Below are positions 8,295 to 17,181 of a stretch of 26,316 nucleotides of DNA, piece after piece (within the stretch, counting starts at the first letter, position 1; every line of letters begins with the position of its first letter). The position numbers were made by a program, and so were the translations under genes. Under the pieces are notes generated by a model. That model saw only the letters and a list, made by a program, of their open reading frames with translations, was not told where the DNA came from and made no database searches. Source of the DNA: a virus; IMG/VR virus record IMGVR_UViG_3300035701_000245, positions 1 through 26,316 of that record. The stretch is one strand, 5' to 3'.

Positions 8295-8577
8295 GTTTCG
8301 CCTCCTGTCGCTTGTATAGTTCCACTATCCGTCCGACCATTGCCGACCGGACCGCCCCCGACAACGCCGTGGGGTTCTTCTGCACGTCAAGCCAAGTGAG
8401 TATGCCCGTCTCAACGAGCTGATTGTTGAGCTCCTTCTTCACCTCCTCCAGGTCCAGGCCGTCGAAGTCAGGCGGCCCTATCGGAATGCCTCGCCCTGCG
8501 GCAGAGTCAGGGTCCGTGTCTCGGACCAGGAAGACGGTCTTTCGTCCTCGGTTGTCGGTTGTGATGACTGTTCTCAT
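8287..8577 (-). CDS. Small conserved phage protein between connector and tail tube
   Basis: This 96-residue protein starts at ATG 8577, overlapping the connector stop as ATGA; the longer frame to 8889 is rejected. It contains GRKTVFLVRDTDPDSAAG, a Gly-Ile-Pro-Ile-Gly-Pro-Pro-Asp segment, then a helix-rich half (LEEVKKELNNQLVETGILTW) and a basic end. I remember the same pattern in other phage operons as a hypothetical protein at this position. It is short enough to be a stopper, tail completion or chaperone protein. It overlaps the tail-tube gene by eight bases. No catalytic residues are evident. Confidence 0.6.
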   Translation of the reverse strand: MRTVITTDNRGRKTVFLVRDTDPDSAAGRGIPIGPPDFDGLDLEEVKKELNNQLVETGILTWLDVQKNPTALSGAVRSAMVGRIVELYKRQEAKHG

Positions 8578-9845
8578 ACGAGTGCCATCCTCGGAGCCCT
8601 CTTGGCAAGGCCGGTGAGCCGACGCCACACGACAAGCTCCCCCTTCCGGGTGCCGAAGGGGTTCGACGCGTCCTTGTCCGGTAGGTAGAATGACGGCCCA
8701 CCAGAATCGGTTCGGCTGTAGTCCTGCCGCAAGTCCTTCGCCAGCGAAGCCAGATTGCCACAGGCGCAGAACGGACGCTCCAGCCGGGACACGGCAAGGT
8801 AGGCGATGCACTCGGCATACCGCTGGTCGAGCGGGTCGAGGCTGGTGCCTGCAAGGTAGGCTTGCGACATATCCCCGGCCTGATACCAAACCTTCACCAT
8901 GTCGGGGTCAATCGGCATGGGGTCAGCAGTTGGCACCCATGCGGACGTTGTGGGGTTCCAGTCTGCCGCTACCGGGACCGCAATGCCGAGGCTCACGTCA
9001 CGGACGTGCAGGCACCCGCATTGGTAGACTGTCGAGCAGGACTGGCAACCGCTCCCGCCGCACACCGGGCACCCCAGCGAGCCGTATTCACGGGGCTCCC
9101 AATACAGCTCCGATGAGTGGAGAGAGTAGTCGGTGAATCGCCGATAGACATCGAGCGAGGCGACATAGATAGTCCCGGTGATGTCGAGCGCCGTCTGCCC
9201 CGCCGTCGAAGGGAAGACGTCTTGCTTGACCGGGTCAATCACCTGCCAGAAGTCGAAGGTACAGGTCAGGGTGCCCGCCACAATGGCCGCCGTCTTGGGC
9301 CGGACCTCCCACTCCTCTGTGTTCTTGCCGGTGAAGTAGACGGCCACCTCTTGGATGTCGGCTTGCGTGAGCGTGGTCGCCCTCGTCCCGGTATAAAGCT
9401 CGTTGAACCCATCGCCATCCGGGTCCGACGCCGTGAGTGCCATCGCTCCAATCAGCGTGACGTTGCGCCGCCCTTGAGCAATGAACTTGCCCCAATCGAG
9501 CTTGACGCTCTTCGGGTCGTAGCGGGTATTGACGCCGACCCCGAACCACTCCCGCCTGTGATGCCGGTCGGCCTTGTGCATCTCCCGCTCGAACCACATC
9601 GGGGCGGGCCAGTAGCCAAGGAAGTCCGCAATCTCCCGCTCGGCCTCTGCAATGGCACGGGCCAAGTCTTCCCGGCTGACCTTGTCCGAGCCTTGGTACG
9701 CCTGTTGCCACCAGACATCGGAACAGGCACCACCCAGGGGAAAGAATACCGAGCCTGCCGCCCCGCAGAAGTGGACCGGGCTGATACCCATAATGCGAGC
9801 GAACCGGTCGAGGGACAGGAGCGTAGGAGTGGATGCTCTACTCAT
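8574..9845 (-). CDS. Head-tail connector-like structural protein
   Basis: This 423-residue protein begins with an SLDRFARIMGISPVHF segment and a KVSREDLARAIAEAEREIADFLGYWPAP helix (residues 55-82). The helix and the 'xxxYWPAP' end resemble the N-terminal connector-fold segments of gp6-like proteins; I recall similar long phage proteins from structural operons. The middle contains a DPDGDGFNELY loop (141-151) that looks like a calcium-binding DxDxDG loop. Residues 259-278 carry six cysteines (CPVC, CQSC, CGC) that could bind metal or form disulfides. It sits between the membrane protein and the tail genes, the right place for a connector. The function is inferred; the gene itself is certain. 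Confidence 0.6.
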   Translation of the reverse strand: MSRASTPTLLSLDRFARIMGISPVHFCGAAGSVFFPLGGACSDVWWQQAYQGSDKVSREDLARAIAEAEREIADFLGYWPAPMWFEREMHKADRHHRREWFGVGVNTRYDPKSVKLDWGKFIAQGRRNVTLIGAMALTASDPDGDGFNELYTGTRATTLTQADIQEVAVYFTGKNTEEWEVRPKTAAIVAGTLTCTFDFWQVIDPVKQDVFPSTAGQTALDITGTIYVASLDVYRRFTDYSLHSSELYWEPREYGSLGCPVCGGSGCQSCSTVYQCGCLHVRDVSLGIAVPVAADWNPTTSAWVPTADPMPIDPDMVKVWYQAGDMSQAYLAGTSLDPLDQRYAECIAYLAVSRLERPFCACGNLASLAKDLRQDYSRTDSGGPSFYLPDKDASNPFGTRKGELVVWRRLTGLAKRAPRMALV

Positions 9846-10200
9846 TCCCCACCGCCTTCGACAGCAGGATTGCTAGGGCAGATAGCGCAAACGGGAGCGA
9901 GAGGGTCATCGTCGGCCAGGGGGCAAACACGACCAACAGCGCGCCACCTATCCCGACCCACACGCTTGTACACCACAGACAGCAGAGGGCCTTGCCGACG
10001 ACGTTCAGGCCGTAGGGATTCGATGACGCGTCGTAGCGCACGCCCAAGAGATGCCGCAACCGACAGAGAATGTCCCAAGGTCCTTCCTCGCTGGTAAGCA
10101 TCAGGGCAATCCGGAACACCGCCCCACCTAGAATAATGAGGCCCACCGGGCCGACACTCCACCAGTCCGATGGGCCGAGCAATCCAGTCGCTTGTCCCAT
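9838..10200 (-). CDS. Small membrane protein, DUF1360-like
   Basis: This 120-residue protein has three likely membrane helices (about 17-37, 78-95 and 97-115). Between the first two lie TSEEGPWDILCRLRHLLG and a Cys cluster, CCLWCTSVW (73-81). The EGP(F/W)D-x-LR-x-x-x-G followed by C-x-x-C-x-S-V-W pattern is what I recall for DUF1360/YjcA-like proteins, which also occur in phages. Function is not known. It starts three bases after the triple glycosyltransferase and overlaps the connector gene by eight bases, so it could anchor a glycan step in the membrane, or act in host takeover or lysis timing; these are guesses. Confidence 0.65.
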   Translation of the reverse strand: MGQATGLLGPSDWWSVGPVGLIILGGAVFRIALMLTSEEGPWDILCRLRHLLGVRYDASSNPYGLNVVGKALCCLWCTSVWVGIGGALLVVFAPWPTMTLSLPFALSALAILLSKAVGNE

Positions 10201-10203
10201 GCC

Positions 10204-13035
10204 TTACGCTTTCTTGGGCCGTCCCGGCTTGCGCTTGGGAGCCGCCTCCGGGGTTGTCGCAATCGCCACGGGTTCGGGGGCAGCCTCTTTCACCAGCGGC
10301 GGGATGACGGTCGGCTTCTCATCCACGATGGTGAACAGGTGCGTCTGCGCCTGGATGTCGTCACGGTGGACAAGGAAGACTTCACCACCGCCCCGATAGC
10401 CGTACTTGATTCCGGTATGCCCTCCAACGACTGAGTGCAGGCCCGTGTTGGGGTGAGTGTACTTCGCCAAGGAGTAGTCTGCGTCGGACATTGTTGCGCT
10501 CCCGTTGGGGGACGAAGGAATAGCCAAGACCATGCCCCGGTCGGGGCTAGTCTGCTCAAGTGAGACAGGGGAACGACCGTTGCCTTTGCACCCGCATCCC
10601 ACAGCTTTCTCCTCGCCCCATTTCGCCCGGATGTATTCTACAATGCTTCTGTGCTCTTGCAACCCGGTCTCCCGCCGTGAGCCGGTGGAGAACCGGTACA
10701 CCAGCAGTTCGTGAGCGACACGAATGTAACACTTCCCGGCCCGCACCATCCGGTAGTGATACTCCACGTCCTCCCAGGACTTCATCACCTCATCGAACCC
10801 GCCAATCTCGTCGTGCCATGCCTTTGGAATGAGACAGGTCACGTTGCACCAAAGCCACGGCTGAGGCTCCTCCGGCTGCTCGAGCGCACGCTCGCAGTCG
10901 AAGTCGAACGCCCGGTAGCCGATGACGGCCTCATTCGTCTTGCGGTTCCAGTCGTACACCCGTTCCTGCAAGTCGGCGGCGAGCTTCGTCGGGTCGTGGA
11001 TTTCGGCCCTGCCCCGATAGTCCGAGTACACGATAGCGTTGTCAATGCGCCACGCTTCGAGCATCATCTCCAACGCCTGCGGGAGCAGGTAGTCGTCGGC
11101 GTCAAGGAACAGCAGGAAGGGTGCCCGGGCCGCCGCCGCCCCGAGGTTGCGTGCGTGACCTGCGCCCGAACTCTTGCCGGGAAGGAGCCACCGGACATAG
11201 GGGTAGGCGTCCCGAAGCCGGGTCTCCACCTTCTCGGTGTTGTCCATGACGGCCAGCACTTCCCACCGCCTGAACGTCTGCGCCTCCAACGAGTCAAAGG
11301 CATCCCACAACCACTTCTGATGCTTGGGGCCGACCGGGATGACAACGCTCACCATCGGTTCGTCGTACTGCCTGACAGGGTGAGAGTAGCGGCGGGCCGG
11401 GGCATGAGACGCCATCGGATGCTTGCCGTCGCCGTCTTGTCCCGCCCACGGGTGCCACGCCAGCCAGTCCACCTCCCGGTACTCGGCATTCCCGGTGACG
11501 CCGCCTGTCATCCAGGAGTAGTGGAACAGGCCTTCGTTCGTTACCTTCCTCGCCTCCCAGCCATACGCCCCTGAGCGGAGCCAGAACTCGGCGTCTTCCG
11601 ACCCCGCCCCCATAGGGGCATACCGCTGTCGGTAGCCTCCCAACCGCCGCCACATCTCTACCCGGAAGGTGCAGGCCGTGGGGACTTGATTCGCCCGGAG
11701 CAATTGCCGGGCAAAGTCCCAATCCCCCGGCCAGGACGATATGCCATGCGTTCCATCGGGCTTGTGGAAGTGCAGTCCCGTGTAGGTGATACCGAGGTCG
11801 GGACGCTCCTCCATCGGTGGGATAGTCACCGCCAAGAACCGTTCGTCCAGCCAGTCGTCGGCGTCGAGACAGGCGACGTACTTCACGCCACGCTTCCACG
11901 CGTACTCAATGCCGGTGTTACGGGCGATGGCGACACCCTGATTGTCCTGCTTGACGTAGACGACCCTCGGGTCACGGGCGTGCCACTCATCGACTCGCTG
12001 GTGGGTCAGTCCCTTGTCTTCGGTGCCATCGTCCACGACTATGATGTGATTCAGCAGGGGGTAGGTCTGCTTGACGGCGCTCTCGATTGCCCGCCCGACC
12101 TTCTCCCCATAGTTGAATGTGGGAATGATGATTGCCGCCGAGGGTGCCTGAACCTTCACCGCCTCGTTGTAGGTTTGCGCCACCTTCGCCACTTGCTTCT
12201 CCCAGGTGAACGACTTCGCAATCTCCCGGCCGTTGTCGCCCAGGATGGCCGCGTGCTTCATGCAGAACGCCAGCCCTTCCGCTAGGTCGTCCTCGTCACG
12301 GGGCCGGGCAAGGTAGCCGTTGACCCCATGCTTCACCATATCGAGGATGCCGCCGTGAGCGTAGCCGAGAATGGGGACGCCGGACGCCATCGCCTCAAGC
12401 GTCCCGATGCCAAAGGTCTCCTTCGTCGTGGCGAGATACACCCCGCTCCGCTTGACGAAGTTCCGCATCTCCAAGTGGGGCTGCACGCCAATGGTCCGGA
12501 TGTTGTGGAAGTCGCCCGGAGGGGCAAAGGTGGTCACGAATCGGTATTGCGGGAACCGCCGAGCGAGGATGCCGACCGGGAGCGGGTTGCATACGTCAGC
12601 CGCCCGGTTCTTGTTCCACAGGATGTATCGCTCACGTTCGATAGGCTCGCCCCACTCCTTCAGGTCAATCCCGTGCCCAATGACCACAGGGTCAATCCGC
12701 ATGTCACGCCGGAAGGTTTCAGCTACCCACTCCGAAGGGACAGTCACCTTCCGGGCGGCCCGACAGCAGTACAACACCCGCTGATTCGCTCCCCACTCCC
12801 AGGTTGCGGCGTCGTAGTCTGCGGTCCAGTACAGGCCGTGGGTGTGGGCGACGTGTACCGTGTCCCGTTGGGCCAGTCCAGCGTGAACGGCCACAATGTC
12901 GAGCATGGCGTTGGGGTCGTTGACGACCTTCCAACCGAAGTCGGGCAGGTAGCGAATGTACGCCTCGACCACTCGCCGGATACCGCTCTCGTCGCCCCAC
13001 GTCTTGTCGTTCGGGACCATGAATACTTTATTCAT
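10204..13035 (-). CDS. Triple glycosyltransferase (GT4-GT2-GT2) with extra C-terminal module
   Basis: This 943-residue protein starts at ATG 13035 (ATGA overlap), not at the longer 13128 start inside the previous gene. Residues 1-295 are a GT-B fold GT4 enzyme with the E(x7)E motif (E206 and E214 in KETFGIGTLEAMASG). Residues 299-500 are a GT-A fold GT2 domain with DDG (335-337) and DADD (391-394). Residues 561-790 are a second GT2 domain with DADD (645-648) and a WEDVEYHYR helix. Residues 810-943 add a Cys pair (CGC), a small beta-like module and a basic KRKPGRPKK end. It could assemble a short glycan on one chain. The target is not evident; the C-terminal module may dock it to a virion protein. 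Confidence 0.85.
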   Translation of the reverse strand: MNKVFMVPNDKTWGDESGIRRVVEAYIRYLPDFGWKVVNDPNAMLDIVAVHAGLAQRDTVHVAHTHGLYWTADYDAATWEWGANQRVLYCCRAARKVTVPSEWVAETFRRDMRIDPVVIGHGIDLKEWGEPIERERYILWNKNRAADVCNPLPVGILARRFPQYRFVTTFAPPGDFHNIRTIGVQPHLEMRNFVKRSGVYLATTKETFGIGTLEAMASGVPILGYAHGGILDMVKHGVNGYLARPRDEDDLAEGLAFCMKHAAILGDNGREIAKSFTWEKQVAKVAQTYNEAVKVQAPSAAIIIPTFNYGEKVGRAIESAVKQTYPLLNHIIVVDDGTEDKGLTHQRVDEWHARDPRVVYVKQDNQGVAIARNTGIEYAWKRGVKYVACLDADDWLDERFLAVTIPPMEERPDLGITYTGLHFHKPDGTHGISSWPGDWDFARQLLRANQVPTACTFRVEMWRRLGGYRQRYAPMGAGSEDAEFWLRSGAYGWEARKVTNEGLFHYSWMTGGVTGNAEYREVDWLAWHPWAGQDGDGKHPMASHAPARRYSHPVRQYDEPMVSVVIPVGPKHQKWLWDAFDSLEAQTFRRWEVLAVMDNTEKVETRLRDAYPYVRWLLPGKSSGAGHARNLGAAAARAPFLLFLDADDYLLPQALEMMLEAWRIDNAIVYSDYRGRAEIHDPTKLAADLQERVYDWNRKTNEAVIGYRAFDFDCERALEQPEEPQPWLWCNVTCLIPKAWHDEIGGFDEVMKSWEDVEYHYRMVRAGKCYIRVAHELLVYRFSTGSRRETGLQEHRSIVEYIRAKWGEEKAVGCGCKGNGRSPVSLEQTSPDRGMVLAIPSSPNGSATMSDADYSLAKYTHPNTGLHSVVGGHTGIKYGYRGGGEVFLVHRDDIQAQTHLFTIVDEKPTVIPPLVKEAAPEPVAIATTPEAAPKRKPGRPKKA

Positions 13036-13730
13036 CGCCGTTCCCAGGTGGAGACGAGATACATAGCGTGACGCTCCATGACCACCTTCCAGATAGGGCC
13101 GCCGTGTTCCATGTAACCCTGCGCCCATGACTCAAGCGACGACAGGTTGGCAATGTCGCCCCACTCGCCCTGGAATGCGAGCAGGTACGATGCTGGGGCA
13201 ATTCTGCCAAGGAACTCGGCCCGGTCCTGCAAGCTCGCTTCCGAGATGCCAAAGCAGGAGACAAGCAGGTCGGGCTTAGCGTGGTAGCCGACTTCGACTT
13301 GGCAATTCACGCCACGGTGCTTGAGATGCCGGAAGGCGAAGTCGGAGAACTCCGGGAAGTCCACAAGGTAGTAGGTGCCACGGAAGCCGAGGGCCGACGC
13401 CACGACCGCCATCGCCCCGTAGCCTGACCCGAACTCAACGATGCTGTCTAACGACCTGAGCGACACGCCGGGGTGTAGGCGTTCCCATTGCCACAGGTGG
13501 TAACGCTGATGCAGGAGATTCGACTCGTCCTCGCAATCCCACCTGGGGTCGGGGACGCCTGCCTGCTTCATCTGCGCCACTTCCCCGGCCAGGATTTCGC
13601 CGGGGCCAACGTACATGGTGGCGACGCAGGTGGAGAGACGCCAAGGGTGCTGGTAGGCAAGGGGGTCTGCGAGTTCGTGCTTCAGCAGTTCGCCCCGGTA
13701 GAATGTCCAGGCCAACTCAGGGGTTGGCAT
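13032..13730 (-). CDS. SAM-dependent methyltransferase, probably sugar-directed
   Basis: This 232-residue protein contains a class I methyltransferase core: motif I as VEFGSGYGAM (residues 98-107) and an acidic residue at the end of the next strand (YLVDFPEF, D124). The N-terminal ~90 residues are aromatic and helical and may bind the substrate. The layout of N-terminal region, ESN-x-H helix and the FGSGYG motif is like proteins annotated as putative sugar O-methyltransferases. The start overlaps the DegT stop by 14 bases, and the stop overlaps the next gene as ATGA. O-methylation of a sugar made or attached by the neighbouring enzymes is the best reading; methylation of another molecule is not excluded. 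Confidence 0.7.
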   Translation of the reverse strand: MPTPELAWTFYRGELLKHELADPLAYQHPWRLSTCVATMYVGPGEILAGEVAQMKQAGVPDPRWDCEDESNLLHQRYHLWQWERLHPGVSLRSLDSIVEFGSGYGAMAVVASALGFRGTYYLVDFPEFSDFAFRHLKHRGVNCQVEVGYHAKPDLLVSCFGISEASLQDRAEFLGRIAPASYLLAFQGEWGDIANLSSLESWAQGYMEHGGPIWKVVMERHAMYLVSTWERR

Positions 13731-14928
13731 GGAGCCAATCCTCGAACACCTGGGCGACGTACTCCATATCGTCCGGCGTCAGGTCCTGGTGACAGCCGAT
13801 GTACAGACCGTCTCGCTCAAGCCATTCCGCAATTGGGTAGTGCGTGGGGTCGAGCATGCCCTTGTATATCGGCTGGTGGATGATAGGCATCAGGTCGCGT
13901 GTCTCAATCCCCGCCTCATTGAGATAGGGCCGAAAGGTTGCCTTCGGCATACGCTTCGGGTCCATCACAAATGGGTACATCATCCAGGCGTGCTCGTTGC
14001 CGTCTGCCACCTCCGGCAGGAACAGTCCGGCCGCCGCCACGGTATTGAGTGCTTGGAGCCGGGCCGTCAGGTGCCGGGCGTTGCGCCGACGCGTGCTCAA
14101 CATCTCATGGTGCGTCTCAAGCTGGGCCAGTCCCAAAGCCGCCTCCATCTCTGTGATGCGGAAGGAGTGGCCTGCGTGGGTGAAGCGGAACGACCGCCCG
14201 GGGTTGGGCCGTGGGCTGAACCACTCGTCTACATTCAGTTCCGAGATGTCGAGGCCATGATTGACCAGCGACCGAATCTTCTGCGCCAACTTGGGGTCGT
14301 TGGTCGTGCACATGCCGCCGACACCCGTGGTCAGAAGGTGGGCGTTGTAGAACGAGAAGCACCCGACATCCCCCATCGAGCCGACATACTTGCCCCGGTG
14401 CTTGACGAACATCGTCTCGCAGCTATCCTCGATGACGGCCAGCCCATGCCGCTTGGCGACTTCCATGAGAGCGTCCATCTCGCAGGACTGGCCGTACAGG
14501 TGGGCCGGTAGGATTGCCACCGTGTCGTCGGTGATGGCCGCCTCGACCAGGGCCGGGTCAATCCCGTAGGTGAGGGGTTCGACGTCGACAAACACGGGCT
14601 TGAGCCGGTTGTGCAGGATGACGTTCACCGTGGCTACGAAGGTGGAGGCGGGCACAATGACCTGTAGGCCGTCCGGCCAGCCCCTGAGTTCTTTCAGGGC
14701 CTGAACAGCTACGTGCAGGGACGATGTGCCGGAGTTCGAAAGGACCGCATACCGGGTGTTGTGATAGGCGGCGAACTCACGTTCAAAGGCCATCGAGAGT
14801 GGGCCATACGAGATGCGCCCCGACCGGAGCGCCCCAAGCACCAACTCTTCCATCCGGGGGGTGCTCTTGAACGTCCCCGTTGTCACCTTGCGGACGGTCT
14901 GCCGAAGGTAGGCCTTGCTGTCGTCCAT
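13717..14928 (-). CDS. DegT/DnrJ/EryC1/StrS-family PLP enzyme with Lys-to-His change
   Basis: This 403-residue enzyme has the sugar aminotransferase fold: an SYGPLSMAFEREFAAYHN start, the substrate/PLP loops NSGTSSLHVA and PASTFVATVN, a VIEDSCE motif (Asp that binds the PLP ring), and FSFYNAHLLTTGVGG. In most family members the last motif has the Schiff-base lysine at the position where this protein has His197. The same change is known in ColD and E1, PLP- or PMP-using sugar 3-dehydratases. It therefore probably makes a 3-deoxy sugar or is inactive, rather than aminating one. The start is ATG at 14928 (TGATG overlap), not the upstream TTG. It belongs to the four-gene sugar cassette. Confidence 0.85.
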   Translation of the reverse strand: MDDSKAYLRQTVRKVTTGTFKSTPRMEELVLGALRSGRISYGPLSMAFEREFAAYHNTRYAVLSNSGTSSLHVAVQALKELRGWPDGLQVIVPASTFVATVNVILHNRLKPVFVDVEPLTYGIDPALVEAAITDDTVAILPAHLYGQSCEMDALMEVAKRHGLAVIEDSCETMFVKHRGKYVGSMGDVGCFSFYNAHLLTTGVGGMCTTNDPKLAQKIRSLVNHGLDISELNVDEWFSPRPNPGRSFRFTHAGHSFRITEMEAALGLAQLETHHEMLSTRRRNARHLTARLQALNTVAAAGLFLPEVADGNEHAWMMYPFVMDPKRMPKATFRPYLNEAGIETRDLMPIIHQPIYKGMLDPTHYPIAEWLERDGLYIGCHQDLTPDDMEYVAQVFEDWLHANP

Positions 14929-15647
14929 CACAATCCCCAATGCTTCAGGAGGCCAAGCGACCTCATCTCGTCCACGTCCTCGGGCTTTAGTTCGTCCAGC
15001 AGGAGCTTGCCGGAGTCGCCGCCCCTGAACGCCAGGGTGTGATGCAAGGGCGGGTCTTCCGTGCCAAGGACAATCACCTCGTCCCTGAGTTCCCGTAGCC
15101 GTGGGGTGCCGTTGAGCTCAATCTCCCACGGCGTCTCGTCCTCGACCAGGATGCGGAGCAAGTGCTCCTTGCGCCAGAGAGCGCACATCAGCGAGCAATG
15201 GTACTGACTGTCGGGGTCAGAGATGACCAGCCGGACCTTGCCCGCCGTGCCGTACTGCTTGGCGAAGCCGCTATTCTTCCGGTCGCCGGTCAGGTCGAAC
15301 CGGGCCACGTAGTGGAATTGGTCCATATAGGCCGACGCAATATTGAACGCCTCGACGTCCACCGTGCGGGTGAGCCAGTAGTCTTCCAGCATCAGGCCGA
15401 ACACCTCATAGGGCTGCACCATCAGGAACTTGATAAGCGCATTCGACCACTTGTTGAGTGGGAAGGAGGCGAAGCCGCCGAGCGAGTGGAACAGGAAGTT
15501 GGGGGGCAGGGAGAACTGGGGCTTGCTGAACCCGCCGACGATGACGACCGGCTGGGGGTTCCAGTACTTCTCCATGAGATAGGCGAAGGGCCGTAGAGCT
15601 TCGAGGTACTTGTCCGAGGTCAGGACGTATATCGGTGCCTGTGCCAT
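14928..15647 (-). CDS. Glycosyltransferase-like protein, start of carbohydrate cassette
   Basis: This 239-residue protein starts at 15647 (MAQAPIYVLTSDKYL); a longer frame to 15845 would run into the capsid gene and is rejected. It has a Rossmann-like start (IYVLTSDKYLEALRPFAYL), a VVIVGGF strand, an FSLPPNFLFHSLGG loop, and an MLEDYWLTR motif near residue 85 whose acidic pair could bind a metal or nucleotide sugar. I remember similar phage proteins annotated only as hypothetical or as putative glycosyltransferases. Its place next to a DegT-family enzyme, a methyltransferase-like gene and a triple glycosyltransferase supports sugar transfer. The exact donor and acceptor are unknown. The stop shares one base with the next ATG. 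Confidence 0.6.
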   Translation of the reverse strand: MAQAPIYVLTSDKYLEALRPFAYLMEKYWNPQPVVIVGGFSKPQFSLPPNFLFHSLGGFASFPLNKWSNALIKFLMVQPYEVFGLMLEDYWLTRTVDVEAFNIASAYMDQFHYVARFDLTGDRKNSGFAKQYGTAGKVRLVISDPDSQYHCSLMCALWRKEHLLRILVEDETPWEIELNGTPRLRELRDEVIVLGTEDPPLHHTLAFRGGDSGKLLLDELKPEDVDEMRSLGLLKHWGL

Positions 15648-15666
15648 GCCGCCATGATACAGCAGA

Positions 15667-15692
15667 ACGGCCCCCTGTGGAAGCGGGGCCGT
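15667..15692 (-). terminator. Terminator-like hairpin after the capsid gene
   Basis: On the minus strand ACGGCCCC (15692-15685) pairs with GGGGCCGT (15674-15667) around a ten-base loop, giving a perfect eight-base GC-rich stem. The sequence after it is TTCTGCTGT, only weakly U-rich, so termination is probably partial. It would reduce expression of the downstream sugar and tail genes relative to the capsid gene. Confidence 0.55.
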
Positions 15693-15697
15693 CTGCC

Positions 15698-15713
15698 GAA
15701 GTCGGGAGACTTC
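15698..15713 (-). promoter_or_regulatory. Hairpin 1 after the capsid gene
   Basis: GAAGTC/GACTTC form a perfect six-base stem with a four-base loop, 13 bases beyond the capsid stop. It may protect the capsid mRNA 3' end or assist the second hairpin. Confidence 0.5.
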
Positions 15714-15726
15714 TAGATTGAGCGGC

Positions 15727-17181
15727 TTACCAAACGTGCTTGTAGTACTGGTCAGGCCGCATCGACACACCACCGTCAGCGAAGTACGGGCTGGTCGGGT
15801 CGCTCGAGCGGAAGTGCTGGAGCGGGCGATACTTGATTGCGTCAATACGGCCCGCTAGCTGGGGAGTCCGCAGAACGAGGCGGCTCTCCACCTTCACGCT
15901 GAGCTTGTAGCACCATTTCACGTACTCCACCGCCCAGAAGAACATGCCATCGTCGGACCAGAACTGCTGGCTGCCTCCCAGCAGGGCAATGTCCGGGGCC
16001 GCCTTCCGATAGTCGACGTACTCCATGTACGTCACCGGCAGGCCGCCCATGATGGTCAGGGGAATGAAGTACAGCGAGGACGCGTACTCACCAGCCTTGA
16101 TTGCCGCAGGGCCGGTGATGTTGGTCGCCTCATAGATGCCGTCCGAGAGCAGGACCGGGTAGCGCCGCCCGTTGATGTCCAGGTACATTCCCTGGCGCAT
16201 GGCGTCGCGTGCCGCAATCATGTTCTCGCCCCCGAGCGTAATCATCACGTTCGAGTCGACGACCGTCTGGCCGCACTTGTTGGCGTTGTACTGGCAGGGC
16301 CAGATGTCGCTCAGGGTGAACCACAGCTCCGGCCGCATCGAAATGATGTACTGCACCGGTTCCAGGCCCATGCGCTGAGCGTTGAAACGCAGGAACGCCT
16401 CCATGGTGGAGACGTGCCGCACGATGTCATACAGGCTGTTGGGCGGGTCTTCGACGTTCTGGTAGCCGAACGTCTTGACGTCCGAGTCGAGGGCAGCGCA
16501 GGCGCTGTTCGTCTCGGCGTCCACTTGGCCGGTGGCAATCTGCCGGTCCAAGCCTGCGAAGGGCTTGTAGCCGCCGCCCGCATTGCCCGTGGCTGGGTTG
16601 CCCTGGAAGGACCAGACGTTCAGAATCCGCTCCAAGGAGACGCCCGCCGCCACCATCTCGGACTTCGTGACGACATTCAGGACGTCCGACTCATCCATGC
16701 CTGCCGGGGTCATTCCCGTGAGGCCGAGCAGTTTGCCGTACAGCATCAGGTCCGTGTAGTCGCCCCGGTTGCGCTTGAGCATCACATCGTTGATTTCGAT
16801 GGTGCGCGTATCCCGTGCGACACGGCCAAAGCTGGCCGTCAGGTTGCACCCCTTCATCATCGTCACCGGGTTGTCCGAGCAGGGGAAGGCGGCTTCTGCG
16901 CCGACGTCTGCCGAGAATCCGGTGATGGATGCAAAGAACGGGGTCGTGTAGACGGTCGGTATCCAGGGGATTGCCCCCAGGATGCCTTGCGGTCGGATAT
17001 GCGCCGAGACGACTTCACGCTCAATGCTCTGCGAGCCAAAGAGCGAGCCTTCGCCGTGGAGTTCCACCGCCGTCCCAAAGTTCGCCGGGGTCTTGGTCTT
17101 CAGGTCGTCTTTCTTGTCCATGCGTTCGAGGATGGCCGTCTGCTTGGTCAGCAAATCAACCAATTGAGCTTCAAGCTCCAT
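15727..17181 (-). CDS. Major capsid protein
   Basis: This 484-residue protein forms the icosahedral shell. Evidence is position (after the protease/scaffold candidate), length and family-like segments: a short charged coiled-coil N-terminus, a hydrophobic region around IPWIPTVYTTPFFASITGF, a central helix with many aromatic residues, and a C-terminal segment of RTPQLAGRI, KYRPLQHFRSS and YFADGGVSM (within residues 438-484) that I associate with HK97-fold capsid proteins of uncultured phages. The N-terminal ~45 residues could act as a short delta domain removed by the protease, but no cleavage site is evident. The gene has a strong Shine-Dalgarno site and is followed by two hairpins before the carbohydrate genes. 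Confidence 0.8.
   Translation of the reverse strand: MELEAQLVDLLTKQTAILERMDKKDDLKTKTPANFGTAVELHGEGSLFGSQSIEREVVSAHIRPQGILGAIPWIPTVYTTPFFASITGFSADVGAEAAFPCSDNPVTMMKGCNLTASFGRVARDTRTIEINDVMLKRNRGDYTDLMLYGKLLGLTGMTPAGMDESDVLNVVTKSEMVAAGVSLERILNVWSFQGNPATGNAGGGYKPFAGLDRQIATGQVDAETNSACAALDSDVKTFGYQNVEDPPNSLYDIVRHVSTMEAFLRFNAQRMGLEPVQYIISMRPELWFTLSDIWPCQYNANKCGQTVVDSNVMITLGGENMIAARDAMRQGMYLDINGRRYPVLLSDGIYEATNITGPAAIKAGEYASSLYFIPLTIMGGLPVTYMEYVDYRKAAPDIALLGGSQQFWSDDGMFFWAVEYVKWCYKLSVKVESRLVLRTPQLAGRIDAIKYRPLQHFRSSDPTSPYFADGGVSMRPDQYYKHVW

Follow-up and report, generated by a model that had tools for sequence, protein, structure and literature searches.

A variable sugar-gene island occupying one site next to the capsid candidate of uncultivated phages, most likely decorating the phage particle

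The four sugar genes lying between the capsid candidate and the downstream neck/tail genes of an uncultivated virus represent one local version of a variable glycan-building island which, by a modest balance of the evidence, most likely decorates the phage particle. The window analysed here, meaning the whole stretch of DNA, is a 26,316-bp linear virus fragment from IMG/VR (IMGVR_UViG_3300035701_000245). Across its relatives the site and the core of the island are conserved, and this particular combination of four genes is one of the forms that a variable cassette takes. Given this fixed site, a constant glycosyltransferase core carrying its own C-terminal module and an exchangeable complement of sugar enzymes, a particle glycan with varying outer sugars is the best explanation.

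The likely genes of the window are carried on the minus strand in the order terminase, portal, capsid candidate, cassette and tail genes (Table 1), with exactly four cassette genes separating the capsid candidate from the following block of conserved genes. All four ORFs were recovered in the order and on the single strand given by the first-pass annotation, which had also described their junctions as ATGA or TGATG overlaps. This description holds for the stop of gene A, which overlaps the DegT ATG (14928) as TGATG, and for the methyltransferase, which meets the ATG of the large glycosyltransferase at 13035 as ATGA, but not for the DegT gene, which shares a 14-base overlap with the methyltransferase start. 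A 974-aa glycosyltransferase frame beginning at 13128 was discarded as over-extended in favour of the start at 13035. The GC and GC3 contents of the cassette equal those of the neighbouring genes, and a recent import was therefore rejected. Upstream, the presumed major-capsid gene is 27-61% identical over 33 relatives and found no match in families, PHROGs or PDB, profile searches included; the same held for g8574, which may be head-tail connector-like, judged by its position only. No match was obtained for the portal by tblastn against known phages.

Table 1. Features of the window in their order along the minus strand.
Feature	Coordinates	Strand	Basis or remark
Terminase	26221-24914	(-)	
Portal	24873-23194	(-)	
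Major-capsid candidate, 484 aa, conserved locus anchor	15727..17181	(-)	Position after terminase and portal, size, conservation
Strong terminator-like hairpin after capsid candidate	15661..15698	(-)	Folding energy -27.6 kcal/mol, z -4.57
Promoter-like -10 box TGTATCAT preceding gene A	15654..15661	(-)	7/8 matches to TGTATAAT
Gene A, predicted GT-A-fold glycosyltransferase, 239 aa	14928..15647	(-)	AlphaFold and Foldseek
His-type DegT enzyme, 403 aa	13717..14928	(-)	PF01041 E=7e-97
Probable sugar O-methyltransferase, 232 aa	13032..13730	(-)	Weak NanM match and SAM motif
GT4-GT2-GT2 glycosyltransferase with C-terminal module, 943 aa, island core	10204..13035	(-)	Pfam; 20/20 complete islands
C-terminal CxC/beta module	10204..10602	(-)	In-frame GTG 10602 after GGGCGAGGAGAAAGCT
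DUF1360/phrog_781 small protein flanking island	9838..10200	(-)	PF07098 E=7e-8; phrog_781 E=7e-8
g8574, 423 aa, conserved gene bounding island	8574..9845	(-)	Present in 42/48 relative records
Tape-measure-like gene	5960-4299	(-)	
Dit-like propeller protein	4295-1800	(-)	
Sipho_Gp37	1803-652	(-)	

The group of relatives was opened by a degenerate DegT pattern (AHxxTTGVGG), which retrieved IMG/VR contigs sharing the gene order. Scanning IMG/VR with the capsid candidate or gene A as single proteins gave no match; profiles of the two returned 59 and 15 loci, respectively, which came to 55 distinct loci after the removal of duplicates, one genome contig included. The 54 distinct capsid-candidate relatives in IMG/VR include none with a cultivated match, and tblastn of the capsid candidate, gene A and the methyltransferase against 50,697 phage records yielded no sequence relatives. 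The one clue to a host, a match to one Desulfuromonadales MAG contig 14.5 kb in length, is too weak to name it.

A sugar island sits at this position throughout these relatives, which bears out the earlier proposal that a set of glycan enzymes is tied to the head genes. The island between the capsid candidate and g8574 spans 2.7-25.2 kb in the 34 records with both ends intact, five further records being left out because the contig ends inside the island or its coordinates are permuted. Twenty islands are complete in the retrieved DNA. Every one of them has the large glycosyltransferase, 15 have gene A, seven DegT and four the methyltransferase, and in 15 the DUF1360/phrog_781 gene lies near the island end. 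The fixed four-gene composition envisaged by the first-pass annotation does not survive this count, all four genes occurring together in only three complete islands (L026, L032, and L090) and in L027, whose contig ends early and which stands outside the 20. At its smallest (L043-L045), the island consists of the large glycosyltransferase alone, 7-13 bp before g8574. The same annotation had proposed a search for co-occurrence, on the understanding that genes found apart and away from virion genes in most relatives would speak against it; for the most part this was not the case, the capsid candidate being found as well in 12 of the 15 loci with gene A (the exceptions being L097-L099). The locus belongs among phage glycosyltransferases associated with virion genes, its capsid anchor being assigned by position.

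What fills the variable part of the islands is consistent with glycan synthesis. The 117 otherwise unlabelled island ORFs include 30 matches to NAD-dependent epimerase/dehydratase, 28 to GDP_Man_Dehyd, and 24 to Polysacc_synt_2 (these families overlap), together with 12 to Methyltransf_24, ten to GHMP kinase, eight to sulfotransferase, and seven to GT10 fucosyltransferase. The tally of the 116 flanking ORFs of the same loci is dominated by terminases, with two epimerase matches and none to Methyltransf_24, GHMP kinase, sulfotransferase, or GT10. The epimerase difference between island and flank corresponds to a Fisher p=4e-8, a value that is somewhat optimistic given that the sequences are related.

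Within the window, gene A had no sequence-family match, and its assignment as a GT-A-like glycosyltransferase comes from its AlphaFold model (pLDDT 94.5), for which Foldseek returned GT-A glycosyltransferases in the PDB with a probability of 1.00, an E of about 1e-7 and a TMq of about 0.5. D89 and E177 are invariant across 28 homologues, the former lying in an LEDY motif that is a candidate DxD-type metal site. The methyltransferase is probably a sugar O-methyltransferase: its match to NanM (TIGR04371) is weak, at 20 bits below the curated cut-off of 44, and its SAM motif I (ExGxGYG) is invariant in 11 homologues at E99, G101, G103, and G105.

The assignment of the DegT enzyme to its family is secure, and the position of the PLP-lysine is occupied by His197 (FYNAH-LLTTGVGG versus FGNK-IITTGEGG). 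This histidine is kept in 13/13 DegT genes that immediately follow gene A; the search pattern itself fixes the residue, and its conservation was rechecked in the loci found via the capsid candidate. The same lysine-to-histidine change marks the characterised 3-dehydratases E1, ColD, and SpnQ, in which the histidine removes a proton and eliminates the C3 hydroxyl (reviewed in PMC8987622). The DegT enzyme of the window shares with them the DegT/aspartate-aminotransferase fold as well as this substitution, and is probably a PMP-dependent sugar 3-dehydratase. It differs in carrying GVGG where GEGG is the usual form, in lacking the four-cysteine Fe-S motif of E1 and SpnQ (C-X57-C-X1-C-X7-C), and in the lack of a partner reductase or 4,6-dehydratase among the ORFs found in the window. 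Given the missing cysteine motif and a score against RfbH (NF011936) of 210 bits, under the curated cut-off of 423, it would work in a ColD-like manner by its anatomy, yet is not assignable to any named member. Together, the His-type DegT enzyme and the SAM methyltransferase are compatible with a deoxygenated, methylated sugar. The set is not self-contained as had been suggested, for it lacks a maker of the keto-sugar: neither a 4,6-dehydratase nor an epimerase was detected among the scanned window ORFs, and the close relative L026/G001, with a record of 38.8 kb, showed neither; GDP_Man_Dehyd also had no match there. The keto-sugar substrate of the DegT enzyme must therefore be supplied by the host or by genes beyond the fragment.

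Simple co-expression of the island with the capsid gene, the earlier suggestion, is not supported. The 79-bp gap between the capsid candidate and gene A holds a strong hairpin, which has a weak, poor T-run and was unlisted by a generic terminator scan, followed by the promoter-like box, with a sigma-70-like TCCACA-16-TATCAT arrangement upstream of gene A. Strict intrinsic terminators follow the capsid candidate in 31 of 54 loci; shuffled sequences give 3%, and other genes are followed by one in 0-13% of cases. A -10 box of the TGTATAAT type is present in 18/54 loci versus 8% in shuffles; relatives often display a true intrinsic terminator and then TGTATAAT. In L027, TGTATCATGG is identical to that of the window although the hairpins have diverged. 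With a hairpin and a -10-like box intervening, simple co-transcription is unlikely, and the island is probably a transcription unit of its own, apart from the capsid gene.

The large glycosyltransferase is a secure triple-domain enzyme (Glycos_transf_1 E=1e-15, Glycos_transf_2 E=9e-41, and Glyco_tranf_2_2 E=1e-12), and its C-terminal module combines a Cys motif (CxCGG) with a small beta domain, to which some relatives, and not the window, add a helix-hairpin-helix. The module is found in 38/48 relative records, 37 of them within a frame of at least 684 aa. In G003 it is encoded on its own (L101:3047-3592, MCNCDKK...), its start lying one base past the glycosyltransferase stop, and in L048 it seemingly also stands as a separate ORF. 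Comparison with known virion proteins gave no match. Apparent matches to known phages were dismissed, the helix-hairpin-helix hits being at chance level, as were Foldseek hits confined to Rad51-N-type helix-hairpin-helix, a part absent from the window copy; a very weak Foldseek match to DUF7210 of Thermus phage P74-26 was also recorded.

In the window, GGGCGAGGAGAAAGCT precedes an in-frame GTG at 10602, from which the module may possibly also be translated alone, as a 132-aa product. We tentatively propose, as a possibility falling well short of probable, a two-in-one gene in which the internal start would yield a free virion-associated protein and the full-length product a virion-tethered glycosyltransferase, the fixed core of an exchangeable particle-glycan cassette. 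There is about an even chance that the module is instead purely a fused domain, the conserved methionine and Shine-Dalgarno (SD)-like sequence being relics of gene fusion without a product of their own. Several results speak against such relics. An in-frame ATG, GTG, or TTG lies no more than three codons from the Cys motif in 25 of 28 fused versions (4.6 expected), the mean anti-SD pairing energy upstream of the internal start is -7.9 kcal/mol compared to -5.9 on synonymous resampling and -2.7 for other in-frame starts, and the same position serves as a true gene start in L101. In their favour, the resampled mean indicates that the amino-acid sequence alone explains part of the SD signal, the kinship of the sequences inflates significance such that the z-scores overstate independence, and three of the 28 have no start that close to the Cys motif.

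The main rival to virion glycosylation, which we consider unlikely, is that the island remodels the host cell surface, by superinfection exclusion or by O-antigen or capsule conversion, its neighbourhood with head genes being incidental. A GT2 domain resembling GtrB-like O-antigen conversion PHROGs (E=1e-13), an island with its own terminator and promoter unit, and NDP-sugar enzymes, sulfotransferases, and GT10 typical of surface-glycan loci all point in this direction. An integrase is nonetheless present in only 5/48 records, which makes lysogenic conversion unlikely for most members; the core glycosyltransferase always lies between the capsid candidate and g8574 with a module unrelated to surface enzymes, and neither a flippase, a polymerase nor GtrA was detected among 20 scanned window ORFs. 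Hypermodification of the phage DNA by the glycosyltransferases is a far more improbable alternative. A passage of PMC12619734 cites Pyle 2024 for the existence of phage DNA-glycan pathways, and the third domain weakly resembles TAGT (TET-associated glycosyltransferase, PF20691), although at 17.5 bits the match misses the cut-off of 27.5, no thymidylate-synthase-type base-modification gene was found in 48 relative records, and the genes sit among head rather than replication genes. A Tet_JBP search with no matches was uninformative, its controls being silent too.

Virion glycosylation hence remains the preferred reading, and of the earlier proposal of a deoxygenated, O-methylated glycan on the virion or the host surface, the glycan enzymes, the fit of the His-type DegT and SAM enzymes, and the association with head genes have stood, whereas the self-contained nature, the fixed set, and the simple co-expression have not. 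In the scheme that we infer for its acceptor, sugar order, tether, and selective reason, the DegT enzyme would take an NDP-4-keto-6-deoxyhexose supplied by the host and strip its C3 hydroxyl, the methyltransferase would cap a hydroxyl, and a head or neck protein would receive a short oligosaccharide assembled by the GT4-GT2-GT2 and GT-A enzymes. The C-terminal module would tether the large glycosyltransferase to a virion precursor, and initiation at the internal start may in addition yield the module as a protein of its own. Swaps of the middle genes would alter the outer sugars. Counting against a virion role are a module unlike known virion proteins, a capsid anchor assigned by position, and a probably separate transcription of the island, the last being also compatible with a role outside virion assembly. 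Sulfotransferases and NDP-sugar genes occur in cell-surface pathways too.

Few systems are known in which phage particles are glycosylated. Should the proposed role hold true, particle sugars would be under diversifying selection across an uncultivated phage group, as bacterial surface sugars are, and what these sugars evade or bind would become a testable question. A conserved internal start, if real, would be an unusual coupling of a structural protein to a particle-modifying enzyme. The island would likewise provide a natural collection of glycan enzymes, with His-type DegT enzymes among them.

Three further known systems invite comparison. In the C/Nu3 arrangement of phage lambda, an in-frame internal start gives the C-terminal part as a separate protein; the likeness lies in a single reading frame with a putative internal start, the second product here being predicted only, and the upstream part is a protease in lambda and a glycosyltransferase here. 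The gtr serotype-conversion cassettes of temperate phages share the GtrB-like GT2 domain, from which the present system departs in its triple-domain fusion with a unique module, in the absence of an integrase from most relatives, and in the lack of GtrA among the 20 scanned window ORFs (small ORFs and the relatives lying outside that scan). Mycobacteriophage capsid and tail-tube subunits carry glycans, according to passages in PMC12619734 (citing Freeman 2023) and PMC11256854. Che8 and its relatives, analogous to the phages described here, encode glycosyltransferases with a proposed role in capsid or tail protein modification, whereas the present system, with its predicted glycan, is distinguished by a fixed-site island beside the capsid candidate in which NDP-sugar, sulfotransferase, and methyltransferase genes are swapped.

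The large glycosyltransferase, which forms the core of the sugar-gene island as a GT4-GT2-GT2 fusion, is encoded in the relative locus L101 by two ORFs, the GT4 part being divided from the GT2-GT2 part by an HNH-type homing-endonuclease-like ORF. The neighbouring genes also vary among relatives: the methyltransferase homologue of L014 carries a fused N-terminal P-loop sulfotransferase-like domain (YVIGYPRSGTTW), some islands contain a second DegT type with the motif SHTISTGEGG (an E1-like His motif), and the DegT of L028 is instead of the Lys type.

Features in the window and in relative loci
Feature	Location	Strand
HNH-type homing-endonuclease-like ORF	L101:833-1540	
Sulfotransferase-like/methyltransferase fusion	L014:656-2179	
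Second DegT type	L062:20119-21336	(-)
Second DegT type	L079:14819-15961	
ORF with collagen-like repeats	L026:1806-5012	
Rax2-like/Dit-like tail gene	window 4295-1800	

In L026, which is closely related to the window, the head region holds an ORF of 1068 aa whose collagen-like repeats match PF01391 (E=7e-56), and a tail gene of the window fuses a Rax2-like beta-propeller (PF12768, E=6e-16) to a Dit-like C-terminal domain. The capsid locus occurs twice in the 143,142 bp IMG/VR record from which L046 and L052 derive, so this record possibly represents an assembly that was joined or concatenated.

The mRNA of gene A, the GT-A-fold glycosyltransferase, may be translated as a leaderless transcript, given that the gene's ATG lies 6 bases past the end of a -10-like TATCAT and that no clear Shine-Dalgarno sequence precedes it (window 15661-15647). 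The sole match in bacterial genomes was a 14.5-kb phage-like contig (L100, JAQYVZ010000046.1) in a Desulfuromonadales MAG, where the capsid candidate is followed by an epimerase-like ORF and gene A; as a hint at the host this contig is weak, and too weak to name one.
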